Source of the DNA: a virus
Direction: 5' to 3' (one strand)
IMG/VR virus record: IMGVR_UViG_3300008105_000050
Location: 1-36,153 of that record
Length of the DNA: 36,153 nt
The notes beneath the pieces are model-generated. The model made no database searches, was not told where the DNA came from, and saw only the letters and a program-made list of their open reading frames with translations. The translations under genes were made by a program, and so were the position numbers. This document shows positions 2,289-36,153 of the stretch, one piece after another (position 1 is the stretch's first letter; each line of letters starts with the position of its first letter).

Positions 2289-4268
2289 CTAATCCTTACT
2301 CCATATACGTCTGTCGCGATAAACAGCTAATTTACATGGCTTTGAAGAATAACCCATGTTAGTCAGAATTGCCTTGACTTCAGCCGTGAAACCTTTTGGT
2401 ATGGCTTTTCCTTGCCATATCTGAGCATTAAGAGCAGGGATGAACACAAAGTCATAGCCCGTAGTATGCATGAACGTCTCAACAGCATTTCTTACCACTT
2501 CAAAGTAATCAGACTGGCAAATGTACTGCTGATTATCCCTAGTGGTGGTAGCAATTAGTCTATCGAAAGAACCTAGAGATGGGTTGGTTAATGCTTCTTG
2601 ATAAGCGCTTGCCCAAATAGCATCAACATCAATTCTTAGCTGAGGAATGTTAACTCTAGTGCCAGTTGGAATCTTGCAGACCATCCATCTACGCTGTGAA
2701 TAGGTATCAGAAAGAAACTGATAGTCTGTGGTAGTACCACCTATAACAAATGGGGTAGGTTTTTGTTCATCTCTCGATACATACATTACATTGTAATTAA
2801 CGCATGGTTTAGTAATGAACTCGTTGATTTTGTCCCTGTTTTCTGCCTTGAGAACTAGAACCATTTCATCCCAAAAACATAGCCAGCTCTTAGTAAGTGC
2901 AGACTCGACTCCACTGTGGAAGCTAGACATAGAGTATATCCAAGCTGCCTTCAGAAACAAAGAGAAATACTCGTCCTCTTGCTCAGTCCCACCCCAGTAT
3001 TTACTAGCAATATTAGTGTGGGAAATCCCTTGTTTAACCTTGCAAGACTGCAGGTATTCAATAATAGGATTGTAACTATTCTCTAGGGCTACATGGTCAA
3101 CAATTAAAGGTGCATCCCATCTAGGCATAGAAATATTAGTCTGAGTTCTAACCTTGGCAATGATTTGGTTAATAGTCTTTTTCTCACCTTTGAACTCATG
3201 CCTATTGAGAAGCTTGTTGTATCTGATAGAGCCTTTAGCCCATTCAGTTAAGGCGTTGACAGCATTGCTAAATGGGTTGTCAATAACTTCAGTAGGATCG
3301 TTGTCTAGATGATCCCATGTACCACTAGAGCTAGGTAGATACTTAGCATTAGTAGAGCGCCAGCCACAGTCATAAGCCCATCTAAAGATAGATTTGTAGG
3401 TATAGCCACCTTGATAGCCTTCACCTTGCCATTGTGACCATCTATAGGCAAAGTTACATCTAATAGACTTAGGTGACTGCTCAGACCATCTAACCCAATC
3501 ATCAAAGAGTGATTCAGATGTAGCTTTAAGAGCCATTCCCACCTTGTGCCACCCATCCTCATCGTCAAGGTACTGAGGTGAGTTAATAGCCATTAATGCT
3601 GACCTAACTTCATCTAACAACTCACTCTCAGACTTAGTTGTTTTGACCTTAGACGGCTTAGTTTTAGTTGTAGGAGTAATAGGTTGGTAGTGCCGTTCTA
3701 GCGGCTTAGCAATTTCGTCTAGTGTGTAGGTATAGCCAGTGTGTTTAGCAATGGTAGATACATAGCCCGTCTTAGGGTGGACACCACCAGCTAGCCTCAT
3801 TAGCCGAGCAGGGTTAACTAGTTTTGTATCAGCTTTAAGTACATTAACTAGCATTGTCTGAACTAATACCCATTGTTCAGGGTCTACAGGTTTAGATAGG
3901 ACATAGTAGGAATGAACAGATTTACCACCCGTGTCTACTTGGATGGTAGGTTCTGGCAGTCCATACTTTTGCCACATAGACATAGACTCTTCCTTAGAAA
4001 TGTCATCATGCTCATAGAACAGGGCATAGCTTTGGGTAACATCTTTGTCCTTATAAGCGCGGTTAGGACAATAAAATATATTGAGTTGCTTAGCCTCTTG
4101 CTGACTAATCCCTAGGTAATCAACATCAGGATACACAAAAGATAGCTTTCTAGATGTCTTGCCTTTGCCACCATCTATAGGTAGGCAATTAAGAAGCACC
4201 GTATCCCCTTCAACAAAACCCAACGCACTCAAGTGAGTTAACGCATCTTGTACAGTAGTTTTATCCAT
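2289..4268 (-). CDS. Prim-pol / PriCT-2 / VapE-like replication protein lacking a visible Walker A
   Basis: 659 aa. The N-terminal part resembles archaeo-eukaryotic-type primase-polymerases: acidic EHDD at 86-89, VDTGGKSVHSYYVL from 111, and PARLMRLAGGVHPKTG from 153. Residues about 218-304 look like a primase C-terminal-2 domain (DEDGWHKVGMALKATS ... FDDWVRWSEQSPK). The C-terminal part resembles the VapE/VirE helicase-like ATPase: Walker-B-like LCFWDEM at 463-469 and sensor-like VIGGTTTDYQFL then RRWMV at 508-530. No GxxxxGK[ST] P-loop is present where it is expected, between about 440 and 463. The protein may therefore prime without a working helicase, or rely on a partner. The start overlaps the upstream gene in ATGGATAA. 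Confidence 0.75.
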   Translation of the reverse strand: MDKTTVQDALTHLSALGFVEGDTVLLNCLPIDGGKGKTSRKLSFVYPDVDYLGISQQEAKQLNIFYCPNRAYKDKDVTQSYALFYEHDDISKEESMSMWQKYGLPEPTIQVDTGGKSVHSYYVLSKPVDPEQWVLVQTMLVNVLKADTKLVNPARLMRLAGGVHPKTGYVSTIAKHTGYTYTLDEIAKPLERHYQPITPTTKTKPSKVKTTKSESELLDEVRSALMAINSPQYLDDEDGWHKVGMALKATSESLFDDWVRWSEQSPKSIRCNFAYRWSQWQGEGYQGGYTYKSIFRWAYDCGWRSTNAKYLPSSSGTWDHLDNDPTEVIDNPFSNAVNALTEWAKGSIRYNKLLNRHEFKGEKKTINQIIAKVRTQTNISMPRWDAPLIVDHVALENSYNPIIEYLQSCKVKQGISHTNIASKYWGGTEQEDEYFSLFLKAAWIYSMSSFHSGVESALTKSWLCFWDEMVLVLKAENRDKINEFITKPCVNYNVMYVSRDEQKPTPFVIGGTTTDYQFLSDTYSQRRWMVCKIPTGTRVNIPQLRIDVDAIWASAYQEALTNPSLGSFDRLIATTTRDNQQYICQSDYFEVVRNAVETFMHTTGYDFVFIPALNAQIWQGKAIPKGFTAEVKAILTNMGYSSKPCKLAVYRDRRIWSKD

Positions 4269-4549: not shown

Positions 4550-6830
4550 GTATCGTTACTTCCTTAACACCTATCGCAACTCTATACCCACTGGACTACC
4601 AGCTAGATTGGTTGACCCTACTCTAAGGACTATAGGTGAGCAACCACAGTTCTTGCGGATAGGTGAAGGCGACCATCCTACAAATGAGTTACTAAGGAAG
4701 GTCTATCAGCAACCTAGTAAGGATGTAGTTAGAACTAAGGTGTTGGGTGAGATATACCCGCCTACTGACACAGACCCATACCTTCGTAGACCAGATAACA
4801 TTGCTGCTATTAGGACTGCATCAGAACAATTAGGTATTCCATTAGAACGGACTGGTTTAAGGATAGCTACAAATCCTTTTAGGTTAGAGGGTGAAGTATC
4901 TGATGTGAATCTACTTGCACAGATAACTAATAGGGCTGCTGGTAATCTACAGCGCAGTGGCAAGCCTGTACTTGCTAACGCCTTAACTCGCAAAGCTAAA
5001 TTCTTTAGCCAACCTACAAGCTACAGCGAAATAGCTGTAGATGGCACTGAAGGGGTTGAAGCTATTCTTGAGGCTTATAAAAAAGCTGAACCTAGAAGGA
5101 CTGCCAACTCTCAGGGGAACAGACCTATCCTCATGCAAGCAGATGGGCTAGACCCTAACATTGGCATTCCTAGTGGTAGTCCTGAAAATATACCTTGGGA
5201 TAACATTGAGGGCATGAGAGGTCATAATGCTTATAAACCAGCAGATGAACTTAAGCGTCCTAGATTTATTGACCTAGGCACGGGCATCTACACAAGGTCA
5301 GGTGAACGCATCAATGCAGAGCAGAAGAACCTACTTGATATGGGATTGGCTGACCTTGAGGATAGAAGTTTTATATTGCGTGACCCTGCTAGTGTTAATC
5401 AAGTACCTGTTAGAGCAATGGCTTCAGCACTACCTCCAAACTATTATTCTCAGAGAGATAGGAATATCCCTGCCACCCCAGAATCAATTCCCCCTACTAG
5501 AATGACTAGGGATATTAACAATACTCCTATCTATTACAGTGAATTGCCAGCTAACTACTATGGTGTTAAGAGAGATATCCCTGATGAAGACAGGGCTAAG
5601 TATACTCTTCAGCCAGTCAAAGGTAATTGGGCTACAGGGGTAACAGTTATTGATGAAACCAAGGCATTAACAGATGAGATTGGTAGCATCATTGGCTATA
5701 GACCTACTGCTGAAGAGTATCGTAAATCCAAGAGACTTGGCTTTGAAGTACTTGGCGTAGGGCGGCAAGATACATCAACTCTTAATATCCCAGAGAAGGT
5801 TAGCTACTCTCTAGAAGATGGTGTAACTACAAAGAATCTATGGGGGACAGAAGTAGAAATTCCTACAGGAAGACAAGCAATCAATACCTATGTTGAGCCT
5901 AGTCAGACTAAAGAGATAACTGCTGTTACTCCTGTTAGAAGAATGTCCGATAGTATGTCAGACCGTATTCTTGCTGACCCTAATTACCTTTTACATCTTA
6001 AGCAGAATGTTGAACCATTCAAGTCTGCTAGTACACCTCAATACTACCTAGACCAGAGCAAAGACTTTGTTGGCCCTATTCGTGTTGCTAAGAACAATAC
6101 CTACGGAGTTACGCAAGGGAAGACACCTTGGAGAGAATACTACTCAGATCCATTTGTGTATGAAGATAAAGGATTAGATGGTGAAGTATCTAGACTAGTC
6201 AAAGCTGTCAATGAAGCACCAGCACAGCTAGAGAATGCTTTATCTGATCAAGCTTTAGCTAACCGTAAGGTCTTTGATATTGAACAAAAGATTGCGTATG
6301 TACCTTCTTTAAATAGGATAGCTAAAGGATCAAAGAAAGGCGATCAATCCATAACAGCTAGTCCTGAAGCTATTATAGATTGGGTTGAAGCTCGTGAAAC
6401 TATTAGACCTATTGTTGCCCCATTGCAAAAAGAAAGGCGTATGGCTGAGGTTGAAGCAGCTAAAGCACAAGATAGGATAGCAGAACTTAGAGCAGCACAA
6501 GAGCTAATGGGTGTTGAGTATATGGTTAAGCCTAAGCTATGGGGTGAGGACGTGCTAAGCGGCTATCAACAAGGCAGCAGAACTATTGGGGGCATTCGTG
6601 ATTCTAATGAAACGCCTATCAACAACAAATTTACAGAAGCTATTGATGATGAGATAAAAGTATCTAGGATTGCGTCTCAACCTACTATGCCTATTGAGAT
6701 GCAAAGGAAAGCTATTAGTGTTAAACCTAATGCAGTACAAGCATGGAGAGAAGCTATTCAACAAGAAGCTTTAGATAACCGCAGAGACTATGACATAGCA
6801 TCACTCTTTGGTTTCTCAGGTAATTACTAA
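4548..6830 (+). CDS. Large protein of unknown function, 760 aa
   Basis: No family recognised. It is a mainly soluble, charged protein with many Pro/Tyr turns. A motif is used twice: LPPNYYSQRDRNIP at 295-308 and LPANYYGVKRDIP at 333-345. The last third contains two long charged helices likely to be coiled coil (EVSRLVKAVNEAPAQLEN ...; KERRMAEVEAAKAQDRIAEL). No signal peptide, membrane span or nuclease motif is visible. Size and composition would fit an ejected or internal virion protein, but it lies on the opposite strand from the virion genes, so that is only a guess. Its start codon is partly buried in a perfect hairpin and has no ribosome-binding site. Confidence 0.8.
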   Translation: MYRYFLNTYRNSIPTGLPARLVDPTLRTIGEQPQFLRIGEGDHPTNELLRKVYQQPSKDVVRTKVLGEIYPPTDTDPYLRRPDNIAAIRTASEQLGIPLERTGLRIATNPFRLEGEVSDVNLLAQITNRAAGNLQRSGKPVLANALTRKAKFFSQPTSYSEIAVDGTEGVEAILEAYKKAEPRRTANSQGNRPILMQADGLDPNIGIPSGSPENIPWDNIEGMRGHNAYKPADELKRPRFIDLGTGIYTRSGERINAEQKNLLDMGLADLEDRSFILRDPASVNQVPVRAMASALPPNYYSQRDRNIPATPESIPPTRMTRDINNTPIYYSELPANYYGVKRDIPDEDRAKYTLQPVKGNWATGVTVIDETKALTDEIGSIIGYRPTAEEYRKSKRLGFEVLGVGRQDTSTLNIPEKVSYSLEDGVTTKNLWGTEVEIPTGRQAINTYVEPSQTKEITAVTPVRRMSDSMSDRILADPNYLLHLKQNVEPFKSASTPQYYLDQSKDFVGPIRVAKNNTYGVTQGKTPWREYYSDPFVYEDKGLDGEVSRLVKAVNEAPAQLENALSDQALANRKVFDIEQKIAYVPSLNRIAKGSKKGDQSITASPEAIIDWVEARETIRPIVAPLQKERRMAEVEAAKAQDRIAELRAAQELMGVEYMVKPKLWGEDVLSGYQQGSRTIGGIRDSNETPINNKFTEAIDDEIKVSRIASQPTMPIEMQRKAISVKPNAVQAWREAIQQEALDNRRDYDIASLFGFSGNY

Positions 6831-11939: not shown

Positions 11940-12169
11940 AGAAGATAGGATTGCCTTACTCAACTCCTAGTTTCTTCGCAAAGGGTTGAAAGGTTGGGTA
12001 AGCCTCTATGAGGACAACTTAGTCAGCCTACTCCTTTGCTCTCCGTCTCACACCACATCCTTATCCTCTAATGTATAGTCCTCATAACGAGTGTGCCGTC
12101 AATGCCCCACAAGCGCATCTACTTAACAGTAGTTCGATAAGAGTCATGGCTACTACGTTAGGGGATAGG

Positions 12170-12206
12170 GATTCAAAGCCTCTAAAACCCTTTTAGGGAT
12201 TGAAAC
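12170..12206 (+). CRISPR. Solitary CRISPR repeat
   Basis: A 37-nt unit from GATTCAAAGCCTCTAAAACC to TTTTAGGGATTGAAAC. It has the marks of a cyanobacterial type I or III repeat: internal palindrome CCC-TTTT-AGGG and an ATTGAAAC 3' end, which gives the crRNA 5' handle. It is identical over 41 nt (12169-12209) to 15245-15285. No second repeat at array spacing and no cas gene is near. It is therefore a solitary repeat unit rather than an array. Confidence 0.8.
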
Positions 12207-12256
12207 TCAATTCAGCAGAGGACAGATTAGAGTTCTCCCTTTCTCGTAACATCATC

Positions 12257-12278: not shown

Positions 12279-12357
12279 ATGCTTAACGTTAAGCCGTGCG
12301 TCCTTTGCGTACCTCGCAGTTATCACCAGAGTCTGAGCTAGCTCGCGGCGATTTCCT

Positions 12358-14068: not shown

Positions 14069-14644
14069 ATGACACAATTCATTGCGCCCCCTACATCCCC
14101 TATTGCTCTATTGGTATTGTCTCTCCTCTCAACTGGTGGTCAACATCATGAGAAAGAGATTGAGAAATTTGCTCATACCAATAGAGCATCACACTTTATT
14201 TCTGTGCTTCGTAAAGATGGCTGGGAGATACAGACTATTAAGGGTAAGCAAGGTGAAGGCTCTAGTTACATGATGACTAATTCCGACCAAGCATCTAAAG
14301 TACAAGAGTCCCCTGACTTTGATATTACTAGCGCATTAGCAACTATGGAAAACCCACCAGCCGAATTGACTAAGTTTGAAGACTATCAGTTTGCTGCTAG
14401 TAAAGTAGCTAGTCAGCTAAGCCTATTTACTCCTGCTAATTTAGAGCGTGACAAGCGCTTTGACATGACAGACCTTATCGAAGGTTGTGTTGATGTACTT
14501 CGCAAAGTTCAGATTGAAATCCTTGGTGGCAAAGCTCCTAGCATTAAAGAACTCAAAGCTCAAGGGAAACTCTCTAAAGCTCTAGTTGAAGTACTTGGTG
14601 CTATCGATATTCTTAATGGGAAAGAAAAGCCTGAATCTTTCTAA
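14069..14644 (+). CDS. Winged-helix/HTH phage protein
   Basis: 191 aa. The first 65 residues (ALLVLSLLSTGGQHHEKEIE ... RASHFISVLRKDGWEIQTI ... SSYMM) have the order of the phage helix-turn-helix family seen beside replication genes: wing formed by G.....Y. The rest is helical (DLIEGCVDVLRKVQIEILGG) and may mediate oligomerisation. A DNA-binding regulator or replication accessory is likely. The start lies right after a pair of alternative hairpins. Confidence 0.6.
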   Translation: MTQFIAPPTSPIALLVLSLLSTGGQHHEKEIEKFAHTNRASHFISVLRKDGWEIQTIKGKQGEGSSYMMTNSDQASKVQESPDFDITSALATMENPPAELTKFEDYQFAASKVASQLSLFTPANLERDKRFDMTDLIEGCVDVLRKVQIEILGGKAPSIKELKAQGKLSKALVEVLGAIDILNGKEKPESF

Positions 14645-14659
14645 CCATCTAGTACTCTA

Positions 14660-14687
14660 TCCTCAAGGACGCTACGCTACTGGGGGA
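14660..14687 (+). repeat. CTACGCTA hairpin
   Basis: TCCTC pairs with GGGGA around AAGGACGCTACGCTACTGG; 16 nt after the stop of the HTH gene. Confidence 0.75.
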
Positions 14688-14709
14688 CGATGCGGCACAT
14701 TGTCCTGAC

Positions 14710-14742
14710 CACTACCTCTAGCATCTACGCTAGGGGATAGTG
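14710..14742 (+). repeat. CTACGCTA hairpin
   Basis: CACTACCTCTAGC pairs with GCTAGGGGATAGTG (one bulge) around ATCTAC. Confidence 0.85.
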
Positions 14743-15114
14743 TTAGATAACCTCAACCACTATCAAGAGTAGGTGCATATCAGCACTGTACGAGGAACTG
14801 CTCCGTTCTACTGTCACACTTGGATTTAGCAGTTGTTCATCCAAGCGCATACAGCAAGCAAGCTCTGGATTTAGCGGCGAAAGTGTAGAGGAGTCATGAC
14901 CTTTGCTTAGTAGTGTTAGTCTATGTCTAACCTTGCCTCTTGATTAGTCTATCGAACCATGCATCCGAACAGACTTTAAACAGGAAGGTATGGAGAGTTG
15001 TTGCTAAGCTCTTTAAACTGCAAGTGGCGCTATCCACATCCTAAACATGGCAACAGATGTTGAACTGTAAAGACAACTACGGCAAGCTATGGGCCGAGAA
15101 ATATATTAGCGGTA

Positions 15115-15240
15115 AGATGAGTGGCGGAATTGGTAAACGCATAGGCTGGAACTTAATATGTGGAATTAACCCCGTCCTCTGCTATGGCTGTATTGCCAGC
15201 TATCAGAGTGTTCCTTACAGGTTCAAATCCTGTCTCATCT
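15115..15240 (+). tRNA. tRNA-Leu-like element with enlarged anticodon domain
   Basis: Acceptor stem AGATGAG (15115-15121) pairs perfectly with CTCATCT (15234-15240). The D-arm TGGCGGAATTGGTAAACGCA (from 15122) is the tRNA-Leu type. The T-arm is perfect: ACAGG-TTCAAAT-CCTGT (15217-15233). Between D- and T-arms lie 76 nt, about 43 more than in a normal class II tRNA, and no standard anticodon arm can be drawn. Possible inner helices are ATAG-(G)-CTGG with CCAG-CTAT (15141/15203), TTAAT-ATGTGGA-ATTAA and CTCTG with CAGAG. No CCA is encoded. It may be a decayed or insertion-bearing tRNA-Leu, or a tRNA-like structure used for RNA processing. Confidence 0.55.
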
Positions 15241-15245
15241 ATAAG

Positions 15246-15327
15246 GATTCAAAGCCTCTAAAACCCTTTTAGGGATTGAAACTCATCTATAAGGTCTAGG
15301 TGGATAACCCCTATTAGGGATTGAAAC
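15246..15327 (+). CRISPR. CRISPR-type mini-array fused to a tRNA-like element
   Basis: Unit 1 (15246-15282) is identical to the solitary repeat at 12170-12206. Unit 2 keeps the 3' half ACCCCTATTAGGGATTGAAAC (to 15327) but differs upstream. The 13-nt sequence CTCATCTATAAGG occurs before unit 1 (15234-15246, including the tRNA-like 3' strand) and again after it (15282-15294). The 8-23 nt between units is too short for a normal spacer. No cas gene is near. RNase Z cut at the tRNA-like 3' end would free an RNA beginning almost at the repeat. Confidence 0.7.
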
Positions 15328-15492
15328 AACAAAATGCTAGAAAACATCATACCCTTATCCACCAACGCCTCGGTAAGAATGCCCGTTATAACCTTAATAG
15401 AACCTTGCTTTCAGGGTAAAGCCATAACATGAAGCTGCCATAAGGAATGCAGTGTGCAGATTAAAATGGCGTCTACATAAGGGAGGGTATTA

Positions 15493-15623
15493 ACACAGGA
15501 TACTTAGGGAATAATCAATACCTAAGAAGTGGGTTCGTTCATGCTAAGCCTATCCGTTAGAACTTTAAAGTTGCAACTTTAAATCCCAATAGCCGATAGA
15601 GGTAGGACATGGCTATCCTGTGT
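15493..15623 (+). ncRNA. Candidate multi-helix RNA domain
   Basis: ACACAGGATA (15493-15502) pairs with TATCCTGTGT (15614-15623), closing about 130 nt. Inside are CTTAGG/CCTAAG, GTTC/GAAC and a perfect 20-bp palindrome TTTAAAGTTGCAACTTTAAA (15564-15583). The palindrome could also be a repressor operator. No known RNA family recognised. Confidence 0.4.
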
Positions 15624-15866
15624 AGATGATTTGTTGCTATATTGCACAATGCTGTGGGTATCCAAAGGCAGTGTAATAGAGATGGGGGAGTGCAAGTCGT
15701 CCCTGACTAGGAGCTAAGTGGGGTATCTAGCTAGCAATCAATCATCCATTCATTACAGGGAAGTAATTAAAGTGGGAAGCAAAGGAATAGCTAATACTTT
15801 GCACTGACAACGGGTTAATAACCTAACTTAATAAGTGGTTTGCTTATATTCCCACTGTCCATTCTA

Positions 15867-15875
15867 TGCTATAAT
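15867..15875 (+). promoter_or_regulatory. Extended -10 promoter
   Basis: TGCTATAAT is a consensus TATAAT with an extended TGn, about 50 nt upstream of the nuclease gene. No matching -35 is seen at 17 nt. A small ACTC-TTCG-GAGT hairpin lies between it and the start at 15923. Confidence 0.5.
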
Positions 15876-15922
15876 CTATTCATTACTAATGACTCTTCGG
15901 AGTAGAGAGAACTGAATAGATT

Positions 15923-16846
15923 ATGGCTACAACTAAGCCTAAGAAGAAAGCTGAGACTAAACCTAAGCTTACCAACAGTGCTAGATTTTACCCTACTAAG
16001 TGGGGATTCAATGCGCCTAGCGTTACTACTATCCTAAGTGGAACTGAGTCTAGAGCAGCACAGACAAGGCTAGAGAACTGGTCTGAGAAGTGGCTAGCTG
16101 ACCCAGAGAATAAGGGTAAGACAGAGCCAAAGGACAGAGGTTCATTAATAGATGAGCGCCTATCTAAGTACTTTGCCTTAGACCCAGAGTATCGCGTGCT
16201 TCCCACCACATGGGGATTGCCAGAGGATGTAAAGCCATTCATGGATGCGATCCTTAAACCTATGAAGGCTACGGGTAAGTCTATCCTAGCTCAGATTACT
16301 GATGTGATGTGGAGTCAAGGGCTATTGGATTGTGTGGACATTCCTAGGAGTGAGCGTCAGTTCTACCAACCTGACATTAAGATTGCTAGGGAGCAAGAGT
16401 TCATTTCATCTAAGACTTATCGCTATGCTGGTGTCCCTGACTTTGTGGGGAATTACACCAATGCTAAAGGTGAAACTAAACTATCCCTTATCTCTCTCAA
16501 GACTTCTGACAAGAACTATTCAAAGGTTAGCCCTGATTGGAAGGCGTTCAATGCTAGGCTAGCCGAGTGTCGTGCTCAAGGTATTGAGTTTGTACCACCC
16601 GAAGGATGGAGAGAGAACTATGGAGCTAACATGAAGTTCCGTAGAGCAGGGATGCAAGAGAGTGCCTATGACTTTGCTCTACAAGAGTCTCTGGGTATCT
16701 ATGTTGAACAGTACATTGTTTTGGTAGTCACAACTAAAGGTATTCAAACTTTACCTATCGCTGGTATGGAGAAGGATTGGTTTAATCGGATGTGGCTAGA
16801 GAAGGTAGCTAAGTTCTATGAGATGTATCCACAACTAGGAGTTTAA
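15923..16846 (+). CDS. PD-(D/E)XK-type exonuclease-like protein with Ser at the second acidic site
   Basis: 307 aa with a basic N-terminus. Order of motifs: APSVTTIL (31-38), RGSLIDERL (72-80), E159, then YAGVPDF (D173) and LSLISLKTSDK (S191-L-K193). It ends with a helix-strand block (LQESLGIYVEQYIVLVVTT). This is the layout of RecB/Cas4/lambda-exonuclease-like nucleases, where the second motif is usually [D/E]xK; here the acidic residue is Ser. It may be inactive, use another ligand, or serve as a DNA-binding protein. An extended -10 promoter precedes it; the gene closes the SSB/Gp157 group. Confidence 0.6.
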   Translation: MATTKPKKKAETKPKLTNSARFYPTKWGFNAPSVTTILSGTESRAAQTRLENWSEKWLADPENKGKTEPKDRGSLIDERLSKYFALDPEYRVLPTTWGLPEDVKPFMDAILKPMKATGKSILAQITDVMWSQGLLDCVDIPRSERQFYQPDIKIAREQEFISSKTYRYAGVPDFVGNYTNAKGETKLSLISLKTSDKNYSKVSPDWKAFNARLAECRAQGIEFVPPEGWRENYGANMKFRRAGMQESAYDFALQESLGIYVEQYIVLVVTTKGIQTLPIAGMEKDWFNRMWLEKVAKFYEMYPQLGV

Positions 16847-34779: not shown

Positions 34780-35058
34780 CTATAGTTTGCCCACAAGTTT
34801 GTTTTGAAGGAGATAACCTTCTAGTTGCCACAACTGGTTTTCAGCTTGTTCTCGCGCTACTTGTCTGCCAATCTCAATATTAAAGTTAGCAGGGTCAACA
34901 CAAGCGCCTCTACCAAGCAGGGTAAAGCCTGAAGATAGTTTATAGGACACCACGACTTCTTTATCCCAAAACACTGCTTCTTGGGTTTCAGCAGTGTCAA
35001 GCAATTCCTTGATTTGGGTAAGAGTTACTCGGTTAGAGTTGTGACTAGAATAGTCAAT
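34780..35058 (-). CDS. N4 gp49 / Sf6 gp66 family protein
   Basis: The core SSGFTLLGRGACVDPANFNI then EIGRQVAREQAENQLWQLEG and YLL matches the N4 gp49/Sf6 gene 66 family (G....G.gACVDP.NF..eIG...A...A...lW.L.GY.L), small proteins beside phage head genes. No ATG or GTG lies in frame at the 5' end. The coding pattern NRVTLTQIKELLDTAETQEA continues upstream of the TTG at 35004 to an ATT at 35058. That ATT has AGGAG 5 nt upstream, so it may be the start. Overlaps the capsid gene end by 34 nt. Confidence 0.75.
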   Translation of the reverse strand: MDYSSHNSNRVTLTQIKELLDTAETQEAVFWDKEVVVSYKLSSGFTLLGRGACVDPANFNIEIGRQVAREQAENQLWQLEGYLLQNKLVGKL

Positions 35059-36153
35059 ACGTACTCCTGCCAGATAGCCATTAGGAAGCGGTCATAGTCA
35101 GTGTTGTTGTTAAGCTTGACTCTTGGCCCTTCACCCCAGATAGCTTCACCAATGGCATTAGTACCAATGATGATTGCACATTCTGCTTGACGTACTACAG
35201 AAGTACCATCAGCATAACCTTGTGAGGCTAGACCAGAGGTAGTTAGGGTAACTGGGATAGTAGGTAGGTTAGTTGCTTCAAACCAACGTACACCACCCAT
35301 GATGAACCCTAGTGGCATAACCATAGAGTGCATGAATCCAGTTTGACCATAGAAGCCACCACTCTTGACAAGGTCATTAGGTGACATTGTCCAGTCTTGT
35401 AGAGGCATCATCTGAGGTAGGGTTGCAGATTGTGCGCTCATGGGAAGCATGGATACTGGAACACCTGGGTACTGTGTTACCTGTAAGAAGCGTGAGTCTT
35501 GTTGTAGTTGCAACATGAACCCGGGGCTAGCCAATCCATGATACACATCACCGAAGTTAGATTGGAAAGGAGGGACTAAACGAGAGCGCATATCAGCGAC
35601 TACCTTAAGTACATCTCTAGTGAAGTCTAGTCGAGGTGCACCTGTAGCTGTGTTATAAGTACCACCATTAACTATACCTGCGGGGTTATAGTATCCACCC
35701 ACTAGGTTGTTAGCAACTTGTCCAGTGGTTGCTGTTGCGGGGTTAGCAGATAGAGCTAGACCGATGTAGACGCTATCCTTCCAACGGCGATAGTCTTCAA
35801 ATAGGGTTTCACTACCGATGGATTGATGGAACTGGTCAGCGCGGCTCATGTCATACAGGTTACGCTGCATGGTCATGAGGTCGAACATATTAATCTTTAA
35901 CACCCCGGGTTCATTGGGGTTGGTGCTATTACCAGTGGATGGGCCAGTAAACTCTTGAAGAGTAATGGTGACTGCTTCTTCTGGCAAGCCACGACCACCA
36001 CCAGTACCGATGACTTGTGATTTATCGCGTGCACGGGCAGAGAGTGTGTATGACCCTGGATCGTTCCAGAAGCCAAAGCGTTTCATACGTGCAGTAGAAC
36101 CCGGTTGAGCAGCCCAGTCATGTACGATTTGGGGTTGTACAACATACCGAGCA
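35025..36153 (-). CDS. Probable major capsid protein (partial, 5' end outside window)
   Basis: Open from the right edge without a stop; the coding sense continues upstream of the ATG at 36086 (ARYVVQPQIVHDWAAQPGST precedes it), so that ATG is internal. At least 375 residues. Gly/Ala-rich with FDLMTMQRNLYDMSRADQFH ... LKVVADMRSRLVPPFQSNFG ... FLQVTQYPGVP ... SMVMPLGFIMGGVRWFEATN, then AECAIIIGTNAIGEAIWGEG. Alternating strands, a domain order and length like phage HK97-type or N4-gp56-type capsid proteins, plus the gp49-like gene directly after it, support the call. Confidence 0.65.
   Translation of the reverse strand, partial: ARYVVQPQIVHDWAAQPGSTARMKRFGFWNDPGSYTLSARARDKSQVIGTGGGRGLPEEAVTITLQEFTGPSTGNSTNPNEPGVLKINMFDLMTMQRNLYDMSRADQFHQSIGSETLFEDYRRWKDSVYIGLALSANPATATTGQVANNLVGGYYNPAGIVNGGTYNTATGAPRLDFTRDVLKVVADMRSRLVPPFQSNFGDVYHGLASPGFMLQLQQDSRFLQVTQYPGVPVSMLPMSAQSATLPQMMPLQDWTMSPNDLVKSGGFYGQTGFMHSMVMPLGFIMGGVRWFEATNLPTIPVTLTTSGLASQGYADGTSVVRQAECAIIIGTNAIGEAIWGEGPRVKLNNNTDYDRFLMAIWQEYVLTILVTTLTE

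Follow-up and report, generated by a model that had tools for sequence, protein, structure and literature searches.

Solitary host-type CRISPR repeats as candidate type I-D RNA anti-CRISPRs in a freshwater cyanophage lineage

The window, i.e., the whole stretch of viral DNA analysed here (a virus record of 36,153 bases), carries two full copies of one 37-nt CRISPR repeat. One is solitary (12170-12206, + strand), the other (15246-15282, + strand) directly follows a tRNA-like element (TLS; 15115-15241, + strand). The two full repeats are probably candidate RNA anti-CRISPRs (Racr) against type I-D systems. On balance, we favor the explanation that type I-D repeats of the host were captured and are kept as solitary decoy units, that the TLS is a separate entity, and that the copy at its side is a recent one. 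We infer the identity of the host, transcription, binding of Cas6d and inhibition from the comparisons presented below.

Host-type repeats in the phage genome

Each full copy has a single mismatch to the commonest array repeat of Pseudanabaena lw0831, UWO311 and Phormidium tenue FACHB-1050 (36/37). When the window was compared with this Pseudanabaena 37-mer, the sites at 12170 and 15246 emerged with one mismatch each and the background started at 16 mismatches; thus, the full repeats are not chance occurrences. The 45 nt at 12165-12209 and those at 15241-15285 are 98% identical, and Rfam reports no tRNA at 12165-12209. Both repeats are intergenic, positioned between + strand ORFs of at least 80 aa. 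Aligned with the Rfam family CRISPR-DR5, 15247-15282 matches over the full length with 31.1 bits, which is below the gathering score of 40. Further downstream is a degenerate half-repeat (15304-15327, + strand) which consists of the hairpin and tag part only. It covers the last 24 positions of CRISPR-DR5 (14-37) with 22.6 bits and, in the frame 15291-15327, has 14 mismatches to the Pseudanabaena 37-mer. A sequence-only reading of this DNA had placed CRISPR repeats directly downstream of the TLS and had seen no cas genes nearby. Both statements hold: the full repeat and the half-repeat follow the TLS, and PADLOC found no defence or cas families among ten window proteins. A blastn search with the repeats against isolated phages gave no match.

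A scan of genome contigs for AAACCCTWTTAGGGATTGAAAC returned 49 stretches. Pseudanabaena contributed many of them; among the sources of the others are Microcystis, Lyngbya and Microcoleus. In the SR411 genus set 14 of 26 genomes carry the repeat (at most one mismatch to a 35-nt pattern). Pseudanabaena SR411 has an array of the sister allele on one 8-kb locus together with Cas7d, Cas5d, Cas6d, Cas4d and Cas1. A type I-D Cas6d is encoded in lw0831, UWO311 and FACHB-1050, i.e., in genomes with the matching repeat, which bears out the earlier suggestion that the repeat is suited to Cas proteins of the host. In UWO311 and FACHB-1050 the scanned proteins next to the arrays did not include a Cas protein. 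The phage host is probably Pseudanabaena; since the best match of 1178 spacers, from arrays in 49 loci, to the window was 16 nt, this assignment is deduced from the repeat.

Folding of the window and lw0831 repeats predicts a stem of 8 bp. The one change in the window repeat compared to the host repeat, G15 to A, converts a G.U into a Watson-Crick pair within this predicted stem. In predicted fold energy the window repeat gains nothing over the host repeat (-7.4 vs. -7.5 kcal/mol). Cleavage of the CRISPR1 and CRISPR2 repeats of Synechocystis occurs at the base of the hairpin and leaves an 8-nt tag (PMC3575380). By analogy, a Cas6 cut on the window repeat RNA would fall before ATTGAAAC and the tag would be AUUGAAAC.

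Repeats are also present in related phages. L009, a relative of the window phage with a 90% identical exonuclease, has a solitary repeat at 5067-5103 which is of the SR411-type allele (36/37) and lies 1.5 kb from the TLS of this phage. Its change from the host repeat, T12 to C, again replaces G.U by a Watson-Crick pair when placed by position on the predicted stem. In L007 a hairpin-and-tag half-repeat is located about 210 nt upstream of the tRNAs. The four repeat sites in the three phages are all co-directional with neighboring genes. Scans of viral contigs with two Pseudanabaena repeat forms retrieved the window lineage and L009 alone. As a separate observation, viral contigs with CRISPR-like arrays exist in which the repeat is near GAAGCAATTAAGCTTAAGCCTTATTAGGGATTGAAAC, e.g., L013, L025, L028, L030, L031, L042, L078, and L085; in many of them, genes for tRNA-Tyr or tRNA-Met lie at another place of the stretch.

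Capture from a host is supported by the 36/37 match, by two full copies, by another allele in a relative and by several separate sites. When transcribed, the repeats would fold like the host repeat, the RNA would bind Cas6d, perhaps also Cas7d, and the bound proteins would end in dead-end complexes, as with Racr. A type I-F Racr sequesters Cas6 (PMC10651486). With regard to the properties by which Racr are recognized, the match to the repeat of the probable host amounts to 36/37. According to PMC10651486 no other full or partial repeats should be associated; the 12170 copy has no other repeats nearby, and the 15246 copy has the half-repeat 45 nt downstream. An upstream promoter was used in that study to choose candidates. 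A scan of 14600-15960 with a sigma-70 consensus produced one promoter-like site, where chance predicts 3.1; it lies downstream of the 15246 repeat, and none precedes this repeat. PMC10651486 covered IMG/VR3 and reports 2,103 viral solitary repeats; therefore, the window repeat may already be contained in its supplement.

Alternatively, the repeats could be unexpressed relics or non-functional captures from host arrays which are maintained and spread within the phage by recombination, or they could act just as homology to host arrays. We consider this rather improbable. The copy next to the TLS bears marks of recent recombination, and the half-repeats at 15304 and in L007 look degenerate; yet two copies have kept their full length, L009 has an independent site with the other allele at 36/37, and both of the observed changes maintain the predicted stem.

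The tRNA-like element and its surroundings

The Rfam tRNA model matches 15115-15241 with 40.4 bits (gathering score 29; E 2.4e-05 over the window), so a tRNA-like fold, as first proposed, is present. All pairs of the acceptor (7/7 bp), the D-stem (3/3) and the T-stem (5/5) can form and the D-arm is tRNA-Leu-like. The sequence-only reading had described these arms as perfect. In the energy minimum of the single sequence the acceptor and T-arms are kept, but the D-arm strand is paired elsewhere; hence, for the TLS alone a perfect D-arm is possible, not predicted. The fold has a z of -2.51, with 2 of 200 shuffles equally stable. The discriminator base is A15241, one base later than the end at 15240 assigned before. 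The anticodon arm is replaced by a domain which is closed by GGAAC (15148-15152) and GTTCC (15210-15214). Its enlargement was estimated correctly: about 43 nt are inserted in the Rfam alignment. Compared to a tRNA gene the TLS possesses the acceptor, D- and T-arms, the D-arm outside the energy minimum, and has no 7-nt anticodon loop on a 5-bp stem.

With default settings ARAGORN reports no tRNA in the whole window. When introns are allowed, the TLS is reported as tRNA-Ser(GGA); in this model the intron measures 46 nt and the anticodon stem contains a G.G mismatch. We rejected a Leu or Ser tRNA with an intron: across three TLSs the intron models of ARAGORN disagree on the amino acid and on the place of the intron, and a stem following a conserved GGCT covaries in three of four pairs. 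A tmRNA was rejected as well, ARAGORN having found none in five sources.

Two divergent members of the TLS family were found, one in L009 (3366-3547, by blastn and Rfam), the other in L135 (4626-4747, by a pattern search). In the alignment of the three sequences all 19 drawn pairs are kept in each of them and 11 pairs have changed on both sides. The observed values exceed those of all 500 shuffles. When the structure is slid, 40-55% of cells pair; this comparison is based on only three sequences and favors the structure because it was drawn from them. The stem after GGCT reads GGAA/TTCC, GCGG/CCGC and GGAG/CTCC, with both-sided changes in the three covarying pairs. The TLS is a covariation-supported structured RNA. 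A covarying stem in place of the anticodon arm makes decoding by the TLS unlikely; the earlier view that it is kept for its shape is probably right, given the covariation in three sequences. It would be a tRNA-mimicking RNA apart from the repeats.

Like a phage tRNA gene, the TLS occupies the slot in which L007 and L009 have tRNAs identified by ARAGORN; unlike a phage tRNA gene, it has a closed extra domain instead of an anticodon arm. It shares the acceptor sequence with the L009 tRNA in this slot and resembles the L009 TLS in its interior. Thus, the window TLS may be a recombinant of both.

A search with model R1 in 51 sources, including 45 of 75 pattern loci, yielded only the training sequences and one identical copy. 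Matches of 198 nt at 22.5-22.7 bits occur in L027, L051, L062, and L066. The model has matches in all 26 genomes of the genus set. A TLS in host genomes was nevertheless rejected: except for two, the listed matches are tRNA-sized (74-84 nt), and L155, the one inspected, aligns as a tRNA. The two exceptions are 136 nt long and are found in G005, at a Ro60 locus, and in G014, with the same motif pattern.

The TLS and the repeats at its side are part of a 1.28-kb noncoding stretch (14645-15922, + strand) flanked by a 191-aa ORF on one side and by an exonuclease-family gene (15923-16846; PHROG 298, E 1.2e-24) on the other. The same stretch contains a noncoding module, ACACAGGATACTTAGG ... GTGGGTTCGTTCATGCTAAGCCTA ... 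TAGGACATGGCTATCCTGTG, at 15493-15622, which recurs in L009 (3158-3361) and in the isolated Pseudanabaena phage PA-SR01 (L003, from 3782). It may be an undescribed structured RNA; a drawn helix of this module pairs in 12 of 12 cells when slid by -1. Further, 14853-14942 is 81% identical to 4001-4090 of PA-SR01, noncoding and without an annotated gene in PA-SR01. For the proteins encoded at 15923-16846 and 35025-36086, Synechococcus phage S-EIVl was the sole match among isolated phages, with 28% and 35% identity. As judged by the two proteins searched, the phage thus seems to be far from sequenced isolates. In comparison with L004-L006 or L016, 80-186 nt are missing from the window at each of the points 2944, 12351, 16903, 18672, and 21170, possibly through deletion or an assembly join. 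The gap at 12351 is located at the start of a 222-aa ORF, and none of the five lies within the TLS-repeat region.

Origin of the junction between the tRNA-like element and the repeat

The repeat begins 4 nt past the discriminator base A15241. The 1600 nt around this junction are 100% identical in three other IMG/VR records (L004, L005, L006), and it can therefore be considered sound. Six records possess the TLS, i.e., the window, L004/L047, L005/L071, L006/L073, L016 and L008/L045. In five of them the full repeat adjoins the TLS; in L008/L045 it is absent. The repeat is bracketed by a 13-bp direct repeat, CTCATCTATAAGG, with the first copy at the 3' end of the TLS (15234-15246, + strand) and the second at 15282-15294 (+ strand). 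In L008, which hardly differs elsewhere, exactly 48 bp are missing; the gap extends from one copy of CTCATCTATAAGG to the other and includes the CRISPR repeat, and the TLS is directly followed by the half-repeat region. The sequence-only reading mentions neither the duplication nor this gap, nor the solitary repeat at 12170. The edges of the 12170 site are ATAGGG and CTCA. The empty TLS site reads CTCA and ATAAGG, in the order which a template switch in and out requires. The 12170 repeat would have been copied to the TLS by such a switch at ATARGG on the left and CTCA on the right, by which 13 bp at the 3' end of the TLS would have been duplicated. The flanking duplication, the absence in L008 and the edges of the donor site jointly point to this direction: the TLS-side copy was probably written from the 12170 site, and the adjacency is probably recent and not fixed. 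A deletion between the 13-bp repeats could also have produced the L008 state, with an identical outcome, and the records are too similar to one another to polarize the change.

The sequence-only reading had taken the TLS and the repeat as one processing unit from which RNase P and RNase Z free repeat RNA for host Cas proteins. We regard such a unit as unlikely, and just as unlikely that an RNA is released which starts 4 nt before the repeat. The repeat lies precisely 4 nt past the discriminator base, the acceptor and T-arm helices are intact and five of six TLS records have the full repeat adjoining, all of which would fit such a unit; the scan of 14600-15960, in which nothing promoter-like precedes the 15246 repeat, is compatible with it. 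However, a free copy exists at 12170 and L008 has no first repeat at its TLS. In L009 and L135 the TLS has no adjoining repeat (in L135 none was detected in 8,541 bases), and in L007 and L009 the repeats are located away from tRNAs and the TLS. Also, ARAGORN with default settings misses the TLS and the D-arm is outside the energy minimum. Considering the 13-bp duplication, the 48-bp absence in L008 and two TLS relatives without an adjacent repeat, the fusion is apparently incidental.

Still somewhat less probable is a variant in which the TLS serves as a processing and stabilizing head, host tRNA nucleases releasing a type I-D decoy which needs no promoter of its own. If this were true, copying of the repeat to the 3' end of the TLS would have been kept by selection, as seen in five of six records of the lineage. 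Engineered tRNA-guide RNA cassettes exist; if the junction were processed, it would be their natural counterpart.

L074 and L078 were considered as independent cases of a fusion and rejected. They are the only two of the 75 pattern loci with a tRNA detected by default ARAGORN, which misses the TLS, within 500 nt of AGGGATTGAAAC. In both, AAGGGATTGAAAC is without a stem and lies just 5' of a tRNA-Tyr, and in sister contigs AAGGGATTGAAAC is absent or reads GGGATTGCAAC.

Known systems and significance

The captured repeats, which we favor as solitary decoys, resemble the solitary repeat units and Racr described in PMC10651486: they match a host repeat type, lie between genes of a virus and are distant from cas genes. 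They differ from the Racr of that report in that one copy is placed behind a tRNA-like RNA and ahead of a half-repeat, and in that they are of type I-D, belong to a cyanophage and are candidates by sequence. The word tRNA is absent from the main text of PMC10651486. A lone repeat beside a tRNA-like sequence is reminiscent of the delocalised crRNAs of CRISPR-associated transposons, as outlined in PMC11656645. A literature search for a phage tRNA-like RNA with a CRISPR repeat and RNase Z, with subscription papers mostly outside its reach, produced no report, and the accessible part of a review on solitary repeat units and anti-CRISPRs describes no tRNA-repeat fusion.

Bacterial Y RNAs of the YrlA type mimic tRNAs and bind Ro60/Rsr. 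The TLS shares their general design, i.e., acceptor, D- and T-arms of a tRNA with the anticodon arm replaced, and might be a phage relative of these RNAs with Ro60 of the host as a partner. Mycobacteriophages are said to have Y RNAs (PMC12282133), and R1 detects a tRNA-like element of 136 nt directly upstream of a Ro60/TROVE gene in a Pseudanabaena genome. We nonetheless judge a Y RNA to be a poor prospect. The host Ro60-linked elements have AGGGTTAT, which L156 and L168, the host loci, contain five times each and which is missing from all three phage TLSs, and the 136-nt host elements score 56.2 and 53.4 bits with R1, not above the tRNA-sized host matches (up to 57.1). In L156 (G005 contig 121) and L168 (G014 contig 447) tRNA-like elements stand in a row and share AGGGTTAT, five per locus; some of them are known to Rfam only as tRNA. 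In G005, the genome in which Ro60 was tested, the row is upstream of the Ro60/TROVE gene. Possibly, this is a cyanobacterial Y RNA cluster.

The array of Nostoc cyanophage N-1 is likewise cyanophage-borne, of the DR5 kind and without cas genes; in contrast to the window, it has five repeats with four spacers of 29-37 bp and is transcribed (PMC4916379). The window has no normal spacers. A CRISPR mini-array with a spacer directing the Cas proteins of the host to a rival virus is highly improbable: such arrays are known in viruses (PMC11656645) and the two repeats are 45 nt apart in one direction, yet the 37-nt frame leaves just 8 nt between them, short of a normal spacer, for which reason a targeting spacer was rejected, the first 12 inter-repeat bases copy the 3' end of the TLS, the second repeat is devoid of its 5' half, and L008 has just one repeat there.

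With the captured repeats viewed as solitary decoys, a type I-D RNA anti-CRISPR candidate is named in a freshwater cyanophage lineage in which related phages appear to carry different alleles of the host repeat. Beside it, phage tRNA-like RNAs that lack an anticodon arm have been uncovered as a small family with support from covariation.
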